The notes beneath the pieces are model-generated. The model worked only from the letters and a program-made list of their open reading frames with translations. It did not search any database and had not been told where the DNA came from. From Fodinibius salipaludis (lineage in GTDB: Bacteria; Bacteroidota; Rhodothermia; Balneolales; Balneolaceae), in assembly GCF_002287075.1 (NCBI RefSeq), contig NZ_NSKE01000001.1:248001-312000 (forward strand): a stretch of DNA of 64,000 bases. The letters are read 5' to 3'. Each line of letters begins with the position of its first letter. Within the stretch, counting starts at the first letter, position 1. The position numbers and the translations under genes are program-made. Positions 5,080 to 30,917 of this stretch are shown one piece after another.

Positions 5080-5973
5080 TTATGCTTCTTCAAGAGCCTG
5101 TGCACCCGAAATAATTTCAGAAATTTCGGTCGTAATTGCACTCTGTCGTGCCCTGTTGTACTCAAGCTGAAGATCTTCCTTCATTTCCTGAGCATTTTCT
5201 GTAGCATTATCCATCGCAGTCATCCGTGCGCCCTGTTCTGCAGCATTCGACTCCAGAATAGCTCTCCAAAGTTGTAAATTCAAGTGCAAAGGTAACAGTT
5301 TTTGGAGAATATTTTCTACATCCGGCTCAAAAATATATTCGGTAGAAGACATATCTTCTTCCTCATCCTCATCTACCAATTTTGTCGGATCAATAGGTAA
5401 AACAGACTCGACAATCCTGTTTTGAGCAATTACAGACTTAAACTCATTATAGGCCACCTTAACTTTGTCAAAGGTCCCTGATTTAAAATCATTAACAACT
5501 GATTTCATAATGTCAGTTGCTTTACTAAAAACAATTTCATCCCAAAAACCGGGATATTCCGCTATAACATTATAATTACGCTTACCGAAATATTTGATCG
5601 CCTGTCGGCCAATACACATTAGTGACAAGGTGCCACTTTCATGATACTCACTGTACTCATTGCTAATTGTATCTTCAACAGCTTTAAACAAGTTGTTATT
5701 AAAAGCACCGCAAAGACCCCGATCAGAACCAACAACAATAAATAAAACATTATCTGTCGATTCAGGCGTACGTAGCAGTACATTATCTTCACTGGAATTT
5801 TCGACCAGACGTCCCACGACTTCTTTCATTTTGGAAGCATAGGGACGCGTTTCAACAATGCGATCTTGCGCTTTGCGCAACTTAGCAGCAGCCACCATCT
5901 TCATGGCACGGGTAATCTGCTGCGTATTTTTAATCGATTCTATCCGGTTTCGTATGTCGCGAAGATTAGCCAT
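5080..5973 (-). CDS. atpG: ATP synthase F1 subunit gamma
   Basis: A 297-residue protein forming the central rotor shaft of F1. The N-terminal helix has the family hallmark RIESIKNTQQITRAMKMVAA, the middle has VGSDRGLCGAFN, and the C-terminal helix includes ENAQEMKEDLQLEYNRARQSAITTEISEIISGA, all typical of AtpG. An acidic insertion (DEDEEEDMSS) around residues 196-205 is a minor family variation. It is the last gene of the ATP synthase operon, 3 bases after atpA. Confidence 0.98.
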   Translation of the reverse strand: MANLRDIRNRIESIKNTQQITRAMKMVAAAKLRKAQDRIVETRPYASKMKEVVGRLVENSSEDNVLLRTPESTDNVLFIVVGSDRGLCGAFNNNLFKAVEDTISNEYSEYHESGTLSLMCIGRQAIKYFGKRNYNVIAEYPGFWDEIVFSKATDIMKSVVNDFKSGTFDKVKVAYNEFKSVIAQNRIVESVLPIDPTKLVDEDEEEDMSSTEYIFEPDVENILQKLLPLHLNLQLWRAILESNAAEQGARMTAMDNATENAQEMKEDLQLEYNRARQSAITTEISEIISGAQALEEA

Positions 5974-20602: not shown

Positions 20603-23600
20603 TTACGAGCAACCGGTGGTTGATCCACAGGTAATGCACTTCTGACAGGTTCCATTACGGACCATCGTCATACTACCGCACTCAGGACAAGAATCACCGG
20701 TATAACCCAGCTCCTTGGCCTTTTCATAATCGCTCTGATAACTGTCGTCATCAGCTGCGGATTGTGCCTGTTTCGTGGGTTGTGATTCCACCACAGTTTC
20801 GGGCTGATCAGAACTCCCATTGTTATCAGGTTGCTTAGGAGTATCAACCTTATTTGCTTTTCCCCTAGCTTGTTTTTCCTCTTCAGAAGGACGCATCTTG
20901 CGCGTCATCACTTCTTCCGCAGGAACATGCGCCAGATCATCGCGACCGAGATACGTAACGGCAAGCTCACGGAAAATATAGTCAATCACAGAAGTCGTCA
21001 TTTTCACATGTGGACTTCCACTAACCGTTCCACTTGGCTCGAACTTTGTAAATGTAAAGGCATCCACAAACTCTTCGAGCGGTACGCCGTGCTGCAGGCC
21101 AAGAGAAATTGCAATCGCAAAACAGTTGGTCAGGCTTCTAAATGCCGCTCCTTCTCGGTGCATGTCAAGGAATATTTCACCAAGCTGGCCATTTTCATAT
21201 TCACCGGTTCGCAAGTACACGCTCTGCCCACCAATTTTCACCTTCTGGGTATATCCATTTCGGCGGCTGGGCAAGCGTTTACGCTCAGCCACATATTTAT
21301 GAACAATCCGCTCAGCAGTTTCTACTACCTTATCTTGTTCTGCCTTCGTTTCCTCATCCAGATCTTCTTCATCCAGATCCTCAAAGACATCACTGAGACT
21401 ATTCAGCGGCTGACTCAACTTGGAGCCATCACGATACAAGGCATTGGCCTTCAGCATCAGCTCCCATGAGTCCATGTACGCTTCCTTAAAGTCTTCAACC
21501 GTTGCCTCATTCGGCAAGTTAATCGTCTTCGAAATGGCGCCCGAAACAAACGGTTGCGCAGCTGCCATCATGCGGATGTGCCCTTTGGGTTTAATGTATC
21601 GCGTTCCGATACGTCCACAGCGGTTAGCACAATCGAAGACCGGCAGGTGCTCATCTTTCAAGTGTGGAGCCCCTTCAACGGTCATTGTACCGCAGACGTA
21701 GTCGTTGGCTTCCTGAATTTCTTCTTTGGTAAATCCAAGATGCTTGAGGACATCAAACTGAGGATTCGCCAACTGCTCATCAGAAAGACCAAGCTCTTCT
21801 TTACAGAAGTCTTCGCCCAAGGTCCACTGATTAAAGGCAAATTGAATCTCAAAACTGCTTGGCAGCGCTTCTTCAATAGCGTCAAGCTGTTTGTCATCGA
21901 ATCCTTTTTCACGGAGACTTTCCTCATTAATATGCGGACAGCCATCCAGCGATCCATGTCCCTTGGCATAGTTAATAATTTCTTCACGCTCTTTGGGACT
22001 GTATCCAAGATTCTCCAGCGCTTTGGGCACACATTGATTAATAATCTTAAAGTGTCCACCGCCGGCAAGTTTCTTGAATTTCACCAGCGCAAAGTCAGGC
22101 TCAATTCCGGTGGTATCACAATCCATTACCAGACCAATTGTTCCGGTCGGTGCAATTACGGTAACCTGCGCATTACGATAGCCGTGCTTCTCACCCATTT
22201 TAACAGCTTCATCGGAATCTTCGCGAGCAGCCTTAAGAAGATTTTCGGGACATTCATTCGCATCAATGCCCATTGGCTTTACGGTTAGATCCTCGTACTC
22301 ATCGGGATCCACATTATAGGCCGCGCGTTTGTGATTTCGGACTACTTTGAGCATCGGCTCTTTATTAGCTTCAAAACGCTCGAAAGTACCGAGCTCTTTA
22401 GCCATTTCTGCACTCGTTTTATAAGCATTCATATGGATGATGCTCATCAATCCACCCGCAATAGCACATCCTTCATCACTGTCATACGGCACGCCTTGCA
22501 CCATCAGTGCTGCGCCTAAGTTGGCAAATCCAAGACCAAGCGTACGATATTTGTACGATAGATCTGCAATTTCTTTAGATGGGAACTGTGCCATCAGTAC
22601 AGAAATCTCCAGTACGACCGTCCACAAGCGAGAAGCATTACGGAGTGACTCAACATCAAATTCCTTGCACTCATCCGTTTTAAAATATTTCATCAGGTTC
22701 AATGACGCCAGATTACAGGCCGTGTTATCAAGGAACATATATTCCGAACACGGATTACTTCCATTAATCGGTCCGTCATTGGGACATGTGTGCCACTCAT
22801 TAATAGTATCGTGATACTGTGCTCCCGGATCGGCGCATGCCCAGGCAGCATTCGAGATCTGATCCCAAAGTTCACGGGCCGGCATCGTTTTATGCGGTTC
22901 TGGCTCGCGTCCTTCTTCGGCGGCCTTCCGCTTTTCGGTTCTCCAATAAAGGTTCCAGTCGTCGTCATTTTTGACGGCTCGCATAAACTTATTGGGGATG
23001 CGTACGGAGTTGTTTGAATTTTGTCCGCTTACCGTGCGATACGCTTCAGAATCCCAATCCGTATCATAAGTATCAAATTCCAGATCGGTATATCCTTGTG
23101 CAGCCAACTGAACAACCCGTTCAATATAATTGAGCGGTACCTGATCTTCCTTCGCTTCCTTAATAGCTTTACCAAGCTCTTTGTTTTTAACGGGATCGCG
23201 ACTTACCGCCCCATTAAAAGTACGTCCATCAATTTCAACCGGTTCGTTACAAAGCTTAATGATTTTCTTGAGATGCTTCTCCAAAATCTTGGAGCCGGCA
23301 ACCATAGAAGCAACTTTTTGCTCTTCCCGAACTTTCCAATTTACATATTCTTCGATATCGGGATGATCAAGATCCAGCGTTACCATCTTGGCTGCGCGCC
23401 GTGTGGTTCCACCAGACTTAATAGCACCGGCAGCCTTGTCGCCAATCTTCAGAAAGCTCATCAATCCGGATGACCTGCCACCACCGCTCAAGGGCTCTCC
23501 CTCACCGCGAATTTTTGAGAAGTTACTTCCCGTTCCGGAACCATACTTAAAGAGTCGCGCTTCGCGAACCCACAAGTCCATAATGCCTCCCTCATTGACG

Positions 23601-24232
23601 AGGTTGTCATCGATACTCTGGATAAAACAAGCATGCGGCTGTGGATGCGTATAAGCATCTTCTGACTTTGTCAGTTCTCCTGTTTTTCCATCTACATAAT
23701 AATGACCTTGTGACGGACCATTAATGCCATATGCCCAATGTAAACCGGTATTAAACCATTGGGGACTGTTAGGTGCCGCCATTTGATTGGCCAGCATATA
23801 GCTTAATTCGTCATAAAAAACCTTGGCTTCTTTTTCAGAATCAAAATAATCGTGTTTCCATCCCCAATACGTCCAACAACCGGCAAGACGATGAAATACT
23901 TGGCGGCTGTCATACTCTCCGCCATAATAATCATCTTCATCAATCCCTTCCTTTTTCATCGCTTTCTCATCGGCTTCTGATCGCTGCAACCACTCCGGTA
24001 CTCCTTTTTCTTTTACTTTCTTTGTGATTTGTGGGACGCCCGCCTTGCGAAAATATTTTTGGGCAATTACATCTGTTGAAACCTGTGACCAGGTTTCAGG
24101 TACAATCAATTCTTCCATTGAAAAAACAATGGATCCATCGGGATTTTTTATCTCCGATTTGCGGCTCTCAAAATTCATATCTCCAAATGGACTGTCCCAC
24201 TCCTCTTGTGTATAAAATCGTGTAAATTTCAT
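20603..24232 (-). CDS. nrdJ: Adenosylcobalamin-dependent (class II) ribonucleotide reductase
   Basis: A 1209-residue enzyme making deoxyribonucleotides with an adenosylcobalamin-generated radical. Visible signatures: [26 protein letters not shown] near residue 230, the active-site [11 protein letters not shown] around residue 495, [35 protein letters not shown], and the C-terminal redox cysteines in [29 protein letters not shown]. It belongs to the long NrdJ type with a Cys-rich tail. No oxygen-dependent nrdAB or class III genes are in view. It lies beside the B12 uptake genes but has no cobalamin riboswitch; DnaA boxes lie upstream instead. Start ATG at 24232. No intein or frameshift seen. 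Confidence 0.96.
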
Positions 24233-24364
24233 ATTACTAACTCCGGTTTACTTTAATAGTTTTTTACTTAACTGGAAGGCTCTGAAAAAGCACAAAATCA
24301 TGTCGTTTTCTTCTAATTAAATATAAAGGAATGCGACGATGGAACAAGTCAAAAAGCCCAAAAC

Positions 24365-24463
24365 TTTTCCACAAAATGCAGAAGTTATCCACAATAGATC
24401 ATGATATTTGACGTAATTTTTTCAGACTTTTTTATCCGGTATAAGAAAAATTGTGGATAACTT
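24365..24463. promoter_or_regulatory. DnaA-box cluster upstream of nrdJ
   Basis: Two perfect DnaA boxes (TTATCCACA at 24385-24393 and its reverse complement at 24452-24460) sit inside a 14-bp perfect inverted repeat, AAGTTATCCACAAT (24382-24395) and ATTGTGGATAACTT (24450-24463). A third near-match, TTTTCCACA, is at 24365-24373. They lie 133-231 bases upstream of the nrdJ start. DnaA is known to bind such boxes in the E. coli nrdAB promoter, so replication-linked control of nrdJ is a reasonable inference. The rest of the 385-base gap (24233-24617) shows only the btuB terminator. Confidence 0.6.
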
Positions 24464-24560: not shown

Positions 24561-24594
24561 AGCCTCCTTTCATCAGAATTTATGAAAGGAGGCT
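24561..24594 (-). terminator. Terminator after the BtuB-like receptor gene
   Basis: A perfect 13-bp stem (AGCCTCCTTTCAT with ATGAAAGGAGGCT) lies 24 bases past the receptor stop on the minus strand and is followed there by seven T residues: a textbook intrinsic terminator. Confidence 0.92.
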
Positions 24595-24617: not shown

Positions 24618-26819
24618 CTATAATTGATACTGCAACTTGATAAAGTATCCTCGACCTCGGGTATTATAACCGTTAATCTCTTGATAATCAGTATTAAAAA
24701 GATTCTCTACTTTTAGTAGTGTAGATAGATTTTCTGTAACTGAATAGCCCACCGTGGCATTTGTTACATTATAACCCGAAACATCACTACGATCCAGGGC
24801 TCCATTCGGACCTAAGCTTGCACTGTAATACACATCATCTCTGGATCCAACATATCGGGAATCAATTTTAAATCGCAGTTTATCAGTAGCTAAATACGAT
24901 GCACTGACAAAGGCATTCACCGATGGACGCCGAGTTAAGCCTTCAATCTCTTTTTCTTCGGTTACATAGGCTCCGCTCTCATATATTTGTACGTGATTTC
25001 CTCCCGTATATGCTGCATCAATGTCATCTGGTGAAAACGTTATTGTTGATCTGGTGAGAGATACGTTTCCTCGTAGAGTAAGTTTGGGAGTTATTCTCGC
25101 TGAGGCTGATGCTTCAAGTCCTGATACCTGCTGCTCAGAAGCATTAATATACGTATCTCCGAGATAGTCTGAATCCGGAAAGCTTGCACTTAAATTTTCG
25201 ATCGCGGTATCGCCATTCCATAAGTACACGTATTCAATGACATCATCTACTACTGTTTTAAAAGCAGACAATTCAAAAGAAAACTGATTGCCTACCTCTT
25301 GCTTCCATCCAAGCTCGTAAGATACCGATGACTCGGGGTCCAGATTTTCATTGCCCCGGTTTGTATAACTTCCCGCGCTTTGTGACGGTGAATAAAGTTG
25401 GTAGAGTGAAGGGGCGTTAAATCCACTGGTTATTGCACCATATAAAAGCGTGGATTCGGTCACCTGAAGTTTGGGATTCACTTCATACGTAAAGTGAGAT
25501 CCAAACTCATCGTGATGGACCAATCGTCCTCCCAATCCTAATGAAAATAACTCTAACTGATCGGCAATTAATCCTCCATTAAGATTGGACTGGGCATACC
25601 CGTTATAAATAATTTCCTTCAATCCTAATGAATCTAAATCGGTTGTCGATTCATACACTCCAAATTGCGACCGACTATACACATAATTTCGAGTAGACAT
25701 CGTTTGTCGCGATGCGGAAGCACCGGCAACAAATCGAATATGATTCCCATCTATTACGGCCTTCAATTCATTTTCCCAGAGTGATCCTTCGGCATTAAGC
25801 TCTGTATAAATCCCGTCATACGTATCATTGGGACTCACAAGGGACGAATCGTTTACAAAATCTCTGTTTAAATCTGAATAGGCACCCTGGAACTCTAAAG
25901 CTACCTGATCTGATAATTCCATGCCACCCCCAAAATTAAACAGATCGCGCTGAAATTCGGTGTAGGCATTACTATCATCCTGATAAGCACCCTGATCAAC
26001 GTCACTGCGCTGATCTACACGTCTATAAGATGCATATAAATCATACTGATCAGTCGAATACCCAAGCTTACCCACTAAATCAAGTTTATTAAAATCATCC
26101 TGATCCTGTGGATTAAACGTATTGGTGCCGGATGTCGTATCAATGGTTGCATCAAACCCGTTGGTCAGCCGAAAGTTGGCACCCAAATTCGCGTACCATC
26201 CCCCATCAGTAGTATAATTAGCAAAAAGGCTGTTTGTAGTGGAATACGTTCCTTCGCCAAATCGCCCGTGTTTGGTTTCTGCATTTACATTAAATCCTTC
26301 TGCTCCTTCCTTTTTTGTAATAATATTAACAACTCCGCCAATAGCCGAGGAACCATAGAGCGTGCTATGTGATCCGCGGACAATTTCGATGCGCTTTATT
26401 CCGGTAAGTGAAAGCTCCGAAAGATCAATAGAATTATTATTGGTAGAAGGATCACTGATTCGAACGCCGTCAATCAATACAACTGAATGATTGGAATTGG
26501 CATTGCGGATAAATCCCTGCTGCAGCGAGCCCGGCGTTTGTCCCGCTCCTATCATATGTACACTTTGCTGTTGCGCCAACAGCTCACTGACATTTGCATA
26601 TGCAGCATTCTGAATATCCTCCTGTGAAATAACAGTAACATTGCGCCCTACCGACTGCGGGGACTGCTCGTATTTACTGGCACTGATTATAATTTCGTCC
26701 AGCTCATAGATTGTAGAGTCGGTTTCTACATCGTTTTGTTGAGCCAGCGTTGGCACAGATATCCAAAGAAAAGCCACCAAGGCACAAAGCCCTGAAAGTA
26801 ATCGTTTAGTTATGGTCAT
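24618..26819 (-). CDS. btuB: BtuB-like TonB-dependent cobalamin receptor
   Basis: A 733-residue outer-membrane receptor. Signal peptide ends VPTLAQ; a TonB-box-like stretch TIYELDEIIISASK follows; the plug domain contains VLIDGVRISDPSTNNNSIDLSEL and RIEIVRGSHSTLYGSSAIGGVVNIITKK, and the barrel ends with the strand GRGYFIKLQYQL. BtuB-type plugs look like this, and the cobalamin riboswitch upstream makes a corrinoid the likely substrate, taken up with TonB energy and passed to BtuF. The leader between the riboswitch hairpin and the ATG at 26819 is 111 bases long. Exact corrinoid specificity is not readable. Confidence 0.9.
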   Translation of the reverse strand: MTITKRLLSGLCALVAFLWISVPTLAQQNDVETDSTIYELDEIIISASKYEQSPQSVGRNVTVISQEDIQNAAYANVSELLAQQQSVHMIGAGQTPGSLQQGFIRNANSNHSVVLIDGVRISDPSTNNNSIDLSELSLTGIKRIEIVRGSHSTLYGSSAIGGVVNIITKKEGAEGFNVNAETKHGRFGEGTYSTTNSLFANYTTDGGWYANLGANFRLTNGFDATIDTTSGTNTFNPQDQDDFNKLDLVGKLGYSTDQYDLYASYRRVDQRSDVDQGAYQDDSNAYTEFQRDLFNFGGGMELSDQVALEFQGAYSDLNRDFVNDSSLVSPNDTYDGIYTELNAEGSLWENELKAVIDGNHIRFVAGASASRQTMSTRNYVYSRSQFGVYESTTDLDSLGLKEIIYNGYAQSNLNGGLIADQLELFSLGLGGRLVHHDEFGSHFTYEVNPKLQVTESTLLYGAITSGFNAPSLYQLYSPSQSAGSYTNRGNENLDPESSVSYELGWKQEVGNQFSFELSAFKTVVDDVIEYVYLWNGDTAIENLSASFPDSDYLGDTYINASEQQVSGLEASASARITPKLTLRGNVSLTRSTITFSPDDIDAAYTGGNHVQIYESGAYVTEEKEIEGLTRRPSVNAFVSASYLATDKLRFKIDSRYVGSRDDVYYSASLGPNGALDRSDVSGYNVTNATVGYSVTENLSTLLKVENLFNTDYQEINGYNTRGRGYFIKLQYQL

Positions 26820-26930: not shown

Positions 26931-26948
26931 GCTTTTCTCCCGAAAGCT
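26931..26948 (-). promoter_or_regulatory. L13-type hairpin after the btuB riboswitch
   Basis: AGCTTTCGGGAGAAAAGC on the minus strand folds as GCUUU/AAAGC with a seven-base loop CGGGAGA. It lies 16 bases past the riboswitch core and is identical, base for base, to the hairpin after the btuF riboswitch. The loop's CGGG can pair with CCCG in loop L5 of the riboswitch, as in the L5-L13 kissing loop known for this class. Confidence 0.65.
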
Positions 26949-26964
26949 ACGAATGCTGTGCGTT

Positions 26965-27128
26965 GGCAGGTCTTCTGGCTTGTTCCGCTTCTGACAACCT
27001 TCCCGTCCCATCCCGGTTAAACCGAGAGAAACAGTGGTTCAAGAAAGATCAAAAGGTTATGGAACTCACAGCATCGGGGAATGCTCCGGATTTTCCCGAA
27101 AATTATCGAGAGCACCGGATTCCCTTTT
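26965..27128 (-). promoter_or_regulatory. Cobalamin riboswitch upstream of btuB
   Basis: On the minus strand the order is GGGAATCCGGTG, then the P5 hairpin GAGCAT-TCCCCG-ATGCTGTGAG, then AACCACTG, GGGAAGG and finally GCCAGAAGACCTGCC, the B12 box. This is the conserved core of adenosylcobalamin riboswitches. It should repress btuB when the coenzyme is plentiful. The L5 loop CCCG matches the downstream hairpin loop CGGG. Confidence 0.95.
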
Positions 27129-27130
27129 AA

Positions 27131-27159
27131 TCCCATCCCAAAACATTTTTAGGATGGGA
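27131..27159 (-). terminator. Terminator of the btuFCD operon
   Basis: A stem TCCCATCC with GGATGGGA, extended by A/T pairs, lies 48 bases past the btuD stop on the minus strand and is followed by TTAAAA, directly ahead of the btuB riboswitch. It would separate btuFCD transcription from btuB. Confidence 0.65.
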
Positions 27160-27206
27160 ACCAATGCACGAGCCGAAAATACGAGGTGCGCTGAATAAAT
27201 CAAAAC

Positions 27207-30532: not shown

Positions 30533-30551
30533 TGTTTCCGTCATCAATACC

Positions 30552-30703
30552 GGCAGGTCTTCTGGCTTACTCCACTTTTAACAACCTTCCCATCCAATAA
30601 TTATCAGGACAGTGGTTTATGAAGGATCAAAAGCTGTCGGAGCTTACAGCAGCGGGGACTGCTCCGGACTTTCCCAAATTAGGGTACACCGGATTCCCGT
30701 TTT
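30552..30703 (-). promoter_or_regulatory. Cobalamin riboswitch upstream of btuFCD
   Basis: On the minus strand the conserved elements are GGGAATCCGGTG, GGAGCAGTCCCCGCTGCTGTAAGCTCC (P5 region, loop UCCCCG), AAACCACTG, GGGAAGG and GCCAGAAGACCTGCC (B12 box). It controls the importer operon. The remaining bases up to 30917 (about 215) contain no gene I can support and no clear promoter. Confidence 0.95.
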
Positions 30704-30917
30704 AACTGTATTTCAAACGAAATACAGACCTGTATTGAATCAGTAAGTAAAATTAATTTCTGCTCTTGATAATAACGGTATTAATATTGAGAAGCCAATT
30801 TAGAATGAACTTGATAATGAACTTATCTTTAAAGATTAAAGCATGTAATAACACTTCCATTTCTGTATCACTCTTTTATATTACCATTCTAAACATTTCA
30901 CCAATTTAACAACTATT

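Follow-up and report, generated by a model that had tools for sequence, protein, structure and literature searches.

The nrdJ promoter region

Within the window, the whole 64-kb stretch of DNA that was analysed, nrdJ (20603–24232, minus strand) encodes a class II, B12-dependent ribonucleotide reductase (RNR) of 1209 amino acids, which matches NF005736 with 1998 bits against a cut-off of 1737. Its regulatory region is bounded by the terminator (24561–24594, minus strand) of an upstream TonB-receptor-like gene (24618–26819) and contains a 14-bp perfect inverted repeat, AAGTTATCCACAAT/ATTGTGGATAACTT, with arms at 24382–24395 and 24450–24463 and 54 nt in between. One arm holds a distal exact DnaA box, TTATCCACA (24452–24460, minus strand), and the other a proximal exact box (24385–24393, plus strand; TGTGGATAA in the nrdJ sense), which is nearly invariant in Balneolaceae and is the first box of a direct doublet. 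The second doublet box, TTTTCCACA (TGTGGAAAA in the nrdJ sense; 24365–24373, plus strand), starts 20 bp from the first and is the most conserved element of the region. The repeat, the two exact boxes, and the near-match TTTTCCACA reported in a sequence-only reading of this DNA were thus all confirmed in position. Only two exact TTATCCACA boxes occur in the 64-kb window, both at nrdJ, and they lie 67 bp apart from start to start, corresponding to ∼6.4 helical turns; it is this start-to-start spacing, not the 54-nt gap between the arms, that measures their phase.

A putative −33 element, TTG (24345–24347, minus strand), falls in a conserved column block 17 nt downstream of the doublet, and a putative −7 element, TATATTTAA (24317–24325, minus strand), is conserved among nrdJ promoters, giving by comparison a Bacteroidota-type promoter of the form TTG-N19-TAnnTTT. 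A generic sigma-70 scan returned no promoter upstream of nrdJ on the nrdJ strand, as expected since the promoters are Bacteroidota-type, and both elements are therefore assigned from conservation as the probable nrdJ promoter. Relative to it, the centres of the doublet boxes are estimated to lie near −58 and −78.

Conservation of the boxes upstream of nrdJ

Matches of the nrdJ type were present in 122 of 129 Balneolales genomes, and the upstream DNA was compared for 90. In the 450 nt preceding nrdJ, an exact box was found at 66 of 69 loci in Balneolaceae (0.40 expected), 14 of 19 in other Balneolales (0.09 expected), 10 of 19 in other Rhodothermia (0.02 expected), and 2 of 40 in other classes of the phylum (0.13 expected), counts that are not independent, as the nrdJ sequences are related by descent. 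The same interval held no exact box at 47 further named nrdJ loci, mainly from Ignavibacteria and Planctomycetes (0.20 expected), and no exact box was found in control regions either within 1500 nt downstream of nrdJ (0/27) or inside the gene (0/27). Chance occurrence of the boxes is ruled out, with observed numbers far above expectation and above reversed controls, and in the alignment the boxes are kept while most of the DNA between and around them is not conserved. The persistence of the boxes at orthologous genes, by which the sequence-only reading had proposed to judge its own claim, is therefore seen throughout Balneolales and in other Rhodothermia.

In Balneolaceae, the nearly invariant core is the direct doublet TGTGGATAA-N11-TGTGGAAAAG(T/A)A.TT, followed ∼17 nt later by a TTG-N19-TATATTT promoter. 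The gap from the end of the doublet to the −33 TTG is 17–19 nt, the second doublet box lies 137–205 nt before the nrdJ start codon except in a few Balneolaceae genomes, and nearly all promoters compared in this family carry a TGTGGAAAA box at the proximal position. Scanning for the doublet pattern gave matches in 79 of 89 Balneolaceae genomes and none for the reversed control; class I RNR operons were among the additional matches. In some genomes (for example, G035, G030, and locus L257), a third, in-phase TTATCCACA-like box fills the gap of the doublet and creates a 10-bp repeat. Boxes at nrdJ are paired with 2-bp gaps in other Balneolales families, and they persist in other Rhodothermia, often as two boxes ∼150 bp apart, where nrdJ itself is only ∼54% identical in its best segment.

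The inverted distal box, by comparison, is confined to the genus of the window, a member of Balneolaceae near Aliifodinibius, where it is present in 12 of 12 genomes (as TTATCAACA in G017) at a spacing of 65–68 bp, or 98 bp in G018, which has a local duplication; in most other genera, a distal box or doublet lies 160–183 bp upstream in the same orientation. The inverted pair, taken by the sequence-only reading as the key element, is thus real but restricted to one genus, and the conserved element is the direct doublet, which includes the box that had been described as a near-match. Looping across about five helical turns, which had also been suggested, finds no support: the boxes of the window are spaced by 67 bp, this spacing varies (65, 67, 68, and 98 bp), the inverted box occurs in one genus only, and sister genera have a same-orientation distal box 160–183 bp away.

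The doublet at class I operons and at other loci

The genome of the window also encodes a class I RNR in a metE-nrdB-nrdA operon, which is preceded by a cobalamin riboswitch (130 bits) and, just upstream of the riboswitch, by the doublet TGTGGAAAA-N11-TGTGGAAAAG. The second box was present at all 15 riboswitch-bearing class I loci, as exact TGTGGAAAA at 11 and with one mismatch at four, and its distance to the riboswitch aptamer is near-constant among these 15 loci. A promoter corresponding to that of nrdJ lies directly before the aptamer and, since the riboswitch must be within the transcript, the class I doublet lies outside the transcript, upstream of the promoter. In addition, the doublet precedes a class I RNR with an ATP-cone NrdB in two small genomes (G089 and G090) that have no nrdJ orthologue. 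DnaA-box control, to judge from these shared doublets, would not be special to the class II enzyme. The proposal of DnaA-linked control of a class II RNR accordingly keeps its support from the conserved boxes at nrdJ but loses its limitation to class II, since class I operons carry the doublet together with a riboswitch.

These loci also bear on the possibility that the boxes form a DnaA titration or reactivation site, similar to datA or DARS, which adjoins nrdJ by chance and exerts no control over it. Several strong boxes do lie in the intergenic region, and DARS1 and DARS2 of E. coli are likewise located upstream of genes (PMC11317965); against this, the distance from boxes to promoter is fixed over the family, and a position-bound site would not be expected to recur, as the doublet does, in front of the class I operon and of the RNR in genomes lacking nrdJ. 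This explanation is considered quite improbable.

Copies of the nrdJ-type promoter with the doublet were also observed at five loci of the same genus, namely L134 (3980–4620, minus strand), L137 (1050–1600, plus strand), L138 (700–1720, plus strand), L135, and L136, where they precede a segment of ∼200 nt with hairpins and a small open reading frame (for example, …GKTLIFRAWITHPDTGERIYPKNGRAFPIW…). The segment, which matched no Rfam family, is followed by Pycsar-type genes in L134 and has tRNA genes nearby in L134 and L138; possibly, it is a mobile or defence element with a borrowed RNR promoter. Another recurrent doublet, TGTGGAAAA-N11-TGTGGAAAA, lies between a gene of the nucleoside-phosphorylase family and a gene of ∼260 amino acids in L139 (993–1021), L140 (4051–4079), and L141 (4083–4111). 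The ∼260-amino-acid product gave no Pfam match in L139, the locus searched, and the doublet possibly marks a further DnaA-linked nucleotide gene.

DnaA boxes in the dnaA promoter and the probable origin

In pattern searches of the whole genome (3.58 Mb, 39 contigs), the exact box occurred 58 times and the reversed control pattern 29 times. Pairs of exact boxes no more than 100 bp apart are limited to three loci: the nrdJ promoter (contig C1, 272385/272452), the probable oriC (contig C6, 5597/5664), and the dnaA promoter (contig C35, 35730/35827). Twelve of the 33 near-boxes on contig C6 fall in a single 500-bp bin at the probable oriC (5480–5900), which is flanked by a D-Tyr-tRNA deacylase gene and a DinB-family gene, with dnaA on another contig. 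Box clustering in AT-rich DNA might also suggest that the nrdJ region is itself a replication origin or its remnant, a reading with hardly any probability, as the far denser cluster is that on C6, dnaA lies on a different contig from nrdJ, no GC-skew switch is seen at 24.4 kb, and nrdJ and dnaA are 0.77 Mb and 2.03 Mb apart in the record coordinates of two single-contig relatives. With no dense cluster at a GC-skew switch, the nrdJ region was rejected as oriC.

The dnaA promoters at 30 Balneolaceae loci carry two or more of the 9-mers seen at the RNR genes, with little variation in spacing, mainly as the variants TTATCCACA and TTTTCCACA, both of which are also found in the probable oriC. The shared occurrence of these two variants at dnaA, at the probable oriC, and at the RNR promoters is the main evidence for DnaA as the binder. 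The same genome that carries the nrdJ boxes encodes an orthodox DnaA with a box-recognition motif: the protein matches TIGR00362 with 534 bits, carries the motif GGRDHSTVIHA in domain IV, and can be aligned to the domain IV structure 1j1v. Alternatively, an RNR-dedicated regulator of another kind could read a sequence resembling the DnaA box, with DnaA not involved. E. coli DnaA prefers boxes 2–3 bp apart and binds far less well when the gap is one base pair longer (PMC11317965), a double-box rule from which the 20-bp doublet spacing departs; the boxes at nrdJ in the window and in Balneolaceae are separated by 11 bp, and those in the dnaA promoter of the window genome by 2 bp. The TGTGGAAAAG box and the bases after it are, moreover, more conserved than a plain DnaA box. 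Such a regulator is nevertheless unlikely given that the same 9-mers, including TTTTCCACA, are shared by the dnaA promoter and the densest cluster of boxes detected, that some genomes place a third in-phase TTATCCACA-like box between the doublet boxes, and that domain IV of DnaA is orthodox.

Other regulators of RNR genes

No NrdR match exceeded the cut-off in 39 relatives or in 117 genomes from the class, compared with positive results in 9 of 14 control genomes; weak NrdR matches mostly coincided with the coordinates of NrdA, that is, with the NrdA ATP-cone. Control of the RNR genes by NrdR was ruled out on this absence of nrdR from the 117 class genomes. Similarly, Rfam searches of the window, L031, and L046 gave no cobalamin riboswitch between the promoter and nrdJ, so riboswitch control of nrdJ was set aside for these loci, as the sequence-only reading had anticipated. 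Two cobalamin riboswitches do occur elsewhere in the window (26948–27180 and 30535–30748, both minus strand), upstream of TonB-receptor-like and substrate-binding-protein-like genes, and a B12 uptake cluster thus adjoins nrdJ. With NrdR absent and no riboswitch at nrdJ, the inputs visible in the sequence are DnaA boxes at all RNRs and B12 at class I only.

This arrangement is not universal in Rhodothermia. Five genomes of one family of the class (G142, G147, G187, G148, and G165; family f12) have no boxes near nrdJ or nrdBA and no NrdR, and AdoCbl-II riboswitch matches are found upstream of both the nrdJ-type RNR and nrdB-nrdA at loci L341–L343, L345, and L350–L354.

Proposed regulation by DnaA and B12

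The conserved element is very probably a DnaA-binding regulatory module of the RNR promoter, through which DnaA would adjust RNR transcription while B12 would choose the enzyme. The core of the proposed module comprises two boxes in the same orientation, TGTGGATAA-N11-TGTGGAAAAG, 20 bp or roughly two helical turns apart, and a distal box 67–180 bp further up would help the doublet. DnaA, whose amount and ATP/ADP state follow the replication cycle, is predicted to occupy the doublet and thereby to adjust RNR transcription, with one module serving both class II nrdJ and class I nrdBA. The cobalamin riboswitch would shut off the class I operon when B12 is present, so that DnaA would report the demand for dNTPs and B12 would pick the enzyme where both RNRs exist. 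The position of the doublet upstream of the −33 element would suit activation by contact with RNA polymerase, which may occur when DnaA is low to intermediate, and high DnaA-ATP could bring about repression. Because the gap of the doublet can be filled by a third box to give a 10-bp repeat, a short DnaA filament on the doublet would be a reasonable model. A direct wiring of replication start to the supply of DNA precursors is suggested by this arrangement.

On a wider scale, it is judged somewhat probable that Rhodothermia, a class of marine and salt-loving bacteria, lost or never had NrdR and that DnaA is the general transcriptional regulator of RNR in the class. One promoter module would then have stayed with the function while the enzyme changed among two divergent types of class II nrdJ, a class I enzyme encoded with metE, and a class I enzyme with an ATP-cone NrdB; a B12 riboswitch, added as a second layer, would pick the enzyme.

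Comparison with known systems and implications

A cobalamin riboswitch on a B12-independent class I RNR operon, turned off with B12 where nrdJ is present, is known as the Streptomyces-type switch. The operon described here resembles it in that B12 is predicted to silence the B12-independent enzyme in a genome that also has nrdJ, and differs in also carrying metE and in being preceded by a DnaA doublet shared with nrdJ. In E. coli, the nrdAB promoter has one strong and one weaker DnaA box, an arrangement proposed to coordinate dNTP synthesis with replication (PMC8203912, PMC11317965); DnaA activates the promoter at low levels and represses it at high DnaA-ATP, and the data favour DnaA setting the level of RNR expression over its timing (PMC8203912). 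Both systems have DnaA boxes of the consensus type ahead of an RNR promoter, one strong and one weaker. E. coli nrdAB, however, is of class Ia, has a 3-bp box gap, and is also acted on by NrdR, Fis, and IciA, whereas the boxes described here stand at class II and class I genes, have an 11-bp gap, and are conserved across a class in which NrdR is absent. The doublet would act like the E. coli double box but is arranged differently. Regulation of RNR genes by DnaA has also been proposed in B. subtilis and Caulobacter, and DnaA binds the class III nrdDG of E. coli (PMC8203912, PMC11317965); a link of DnaA to RNR transcription is shared with these cases, and no single module acting on both class II and class I was found in the literature searched.

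A literature search found no described case of a class II RNR controlled by DnaA, which is weak evidence as subscription journals were mostly outside its reach, and no paper on Balneolota together with the DnaA box. Control of class Ia RNR by DnaA in E. coli is already known, and the new elements would be the class II RNR and the module shared between class I and class II.

Most of what is known about how cells keep dNTP supply in step with replication comes from NrdR and E. coli. A class that lacks NrdR and carries DnaA boxes at RNRs of different classes provides an evolutionary argument that the coupling of DnaA to RNR is selected in itself, and would offer a clean system in which to test if DnaA controls when RNR is expressed or only how strongly.
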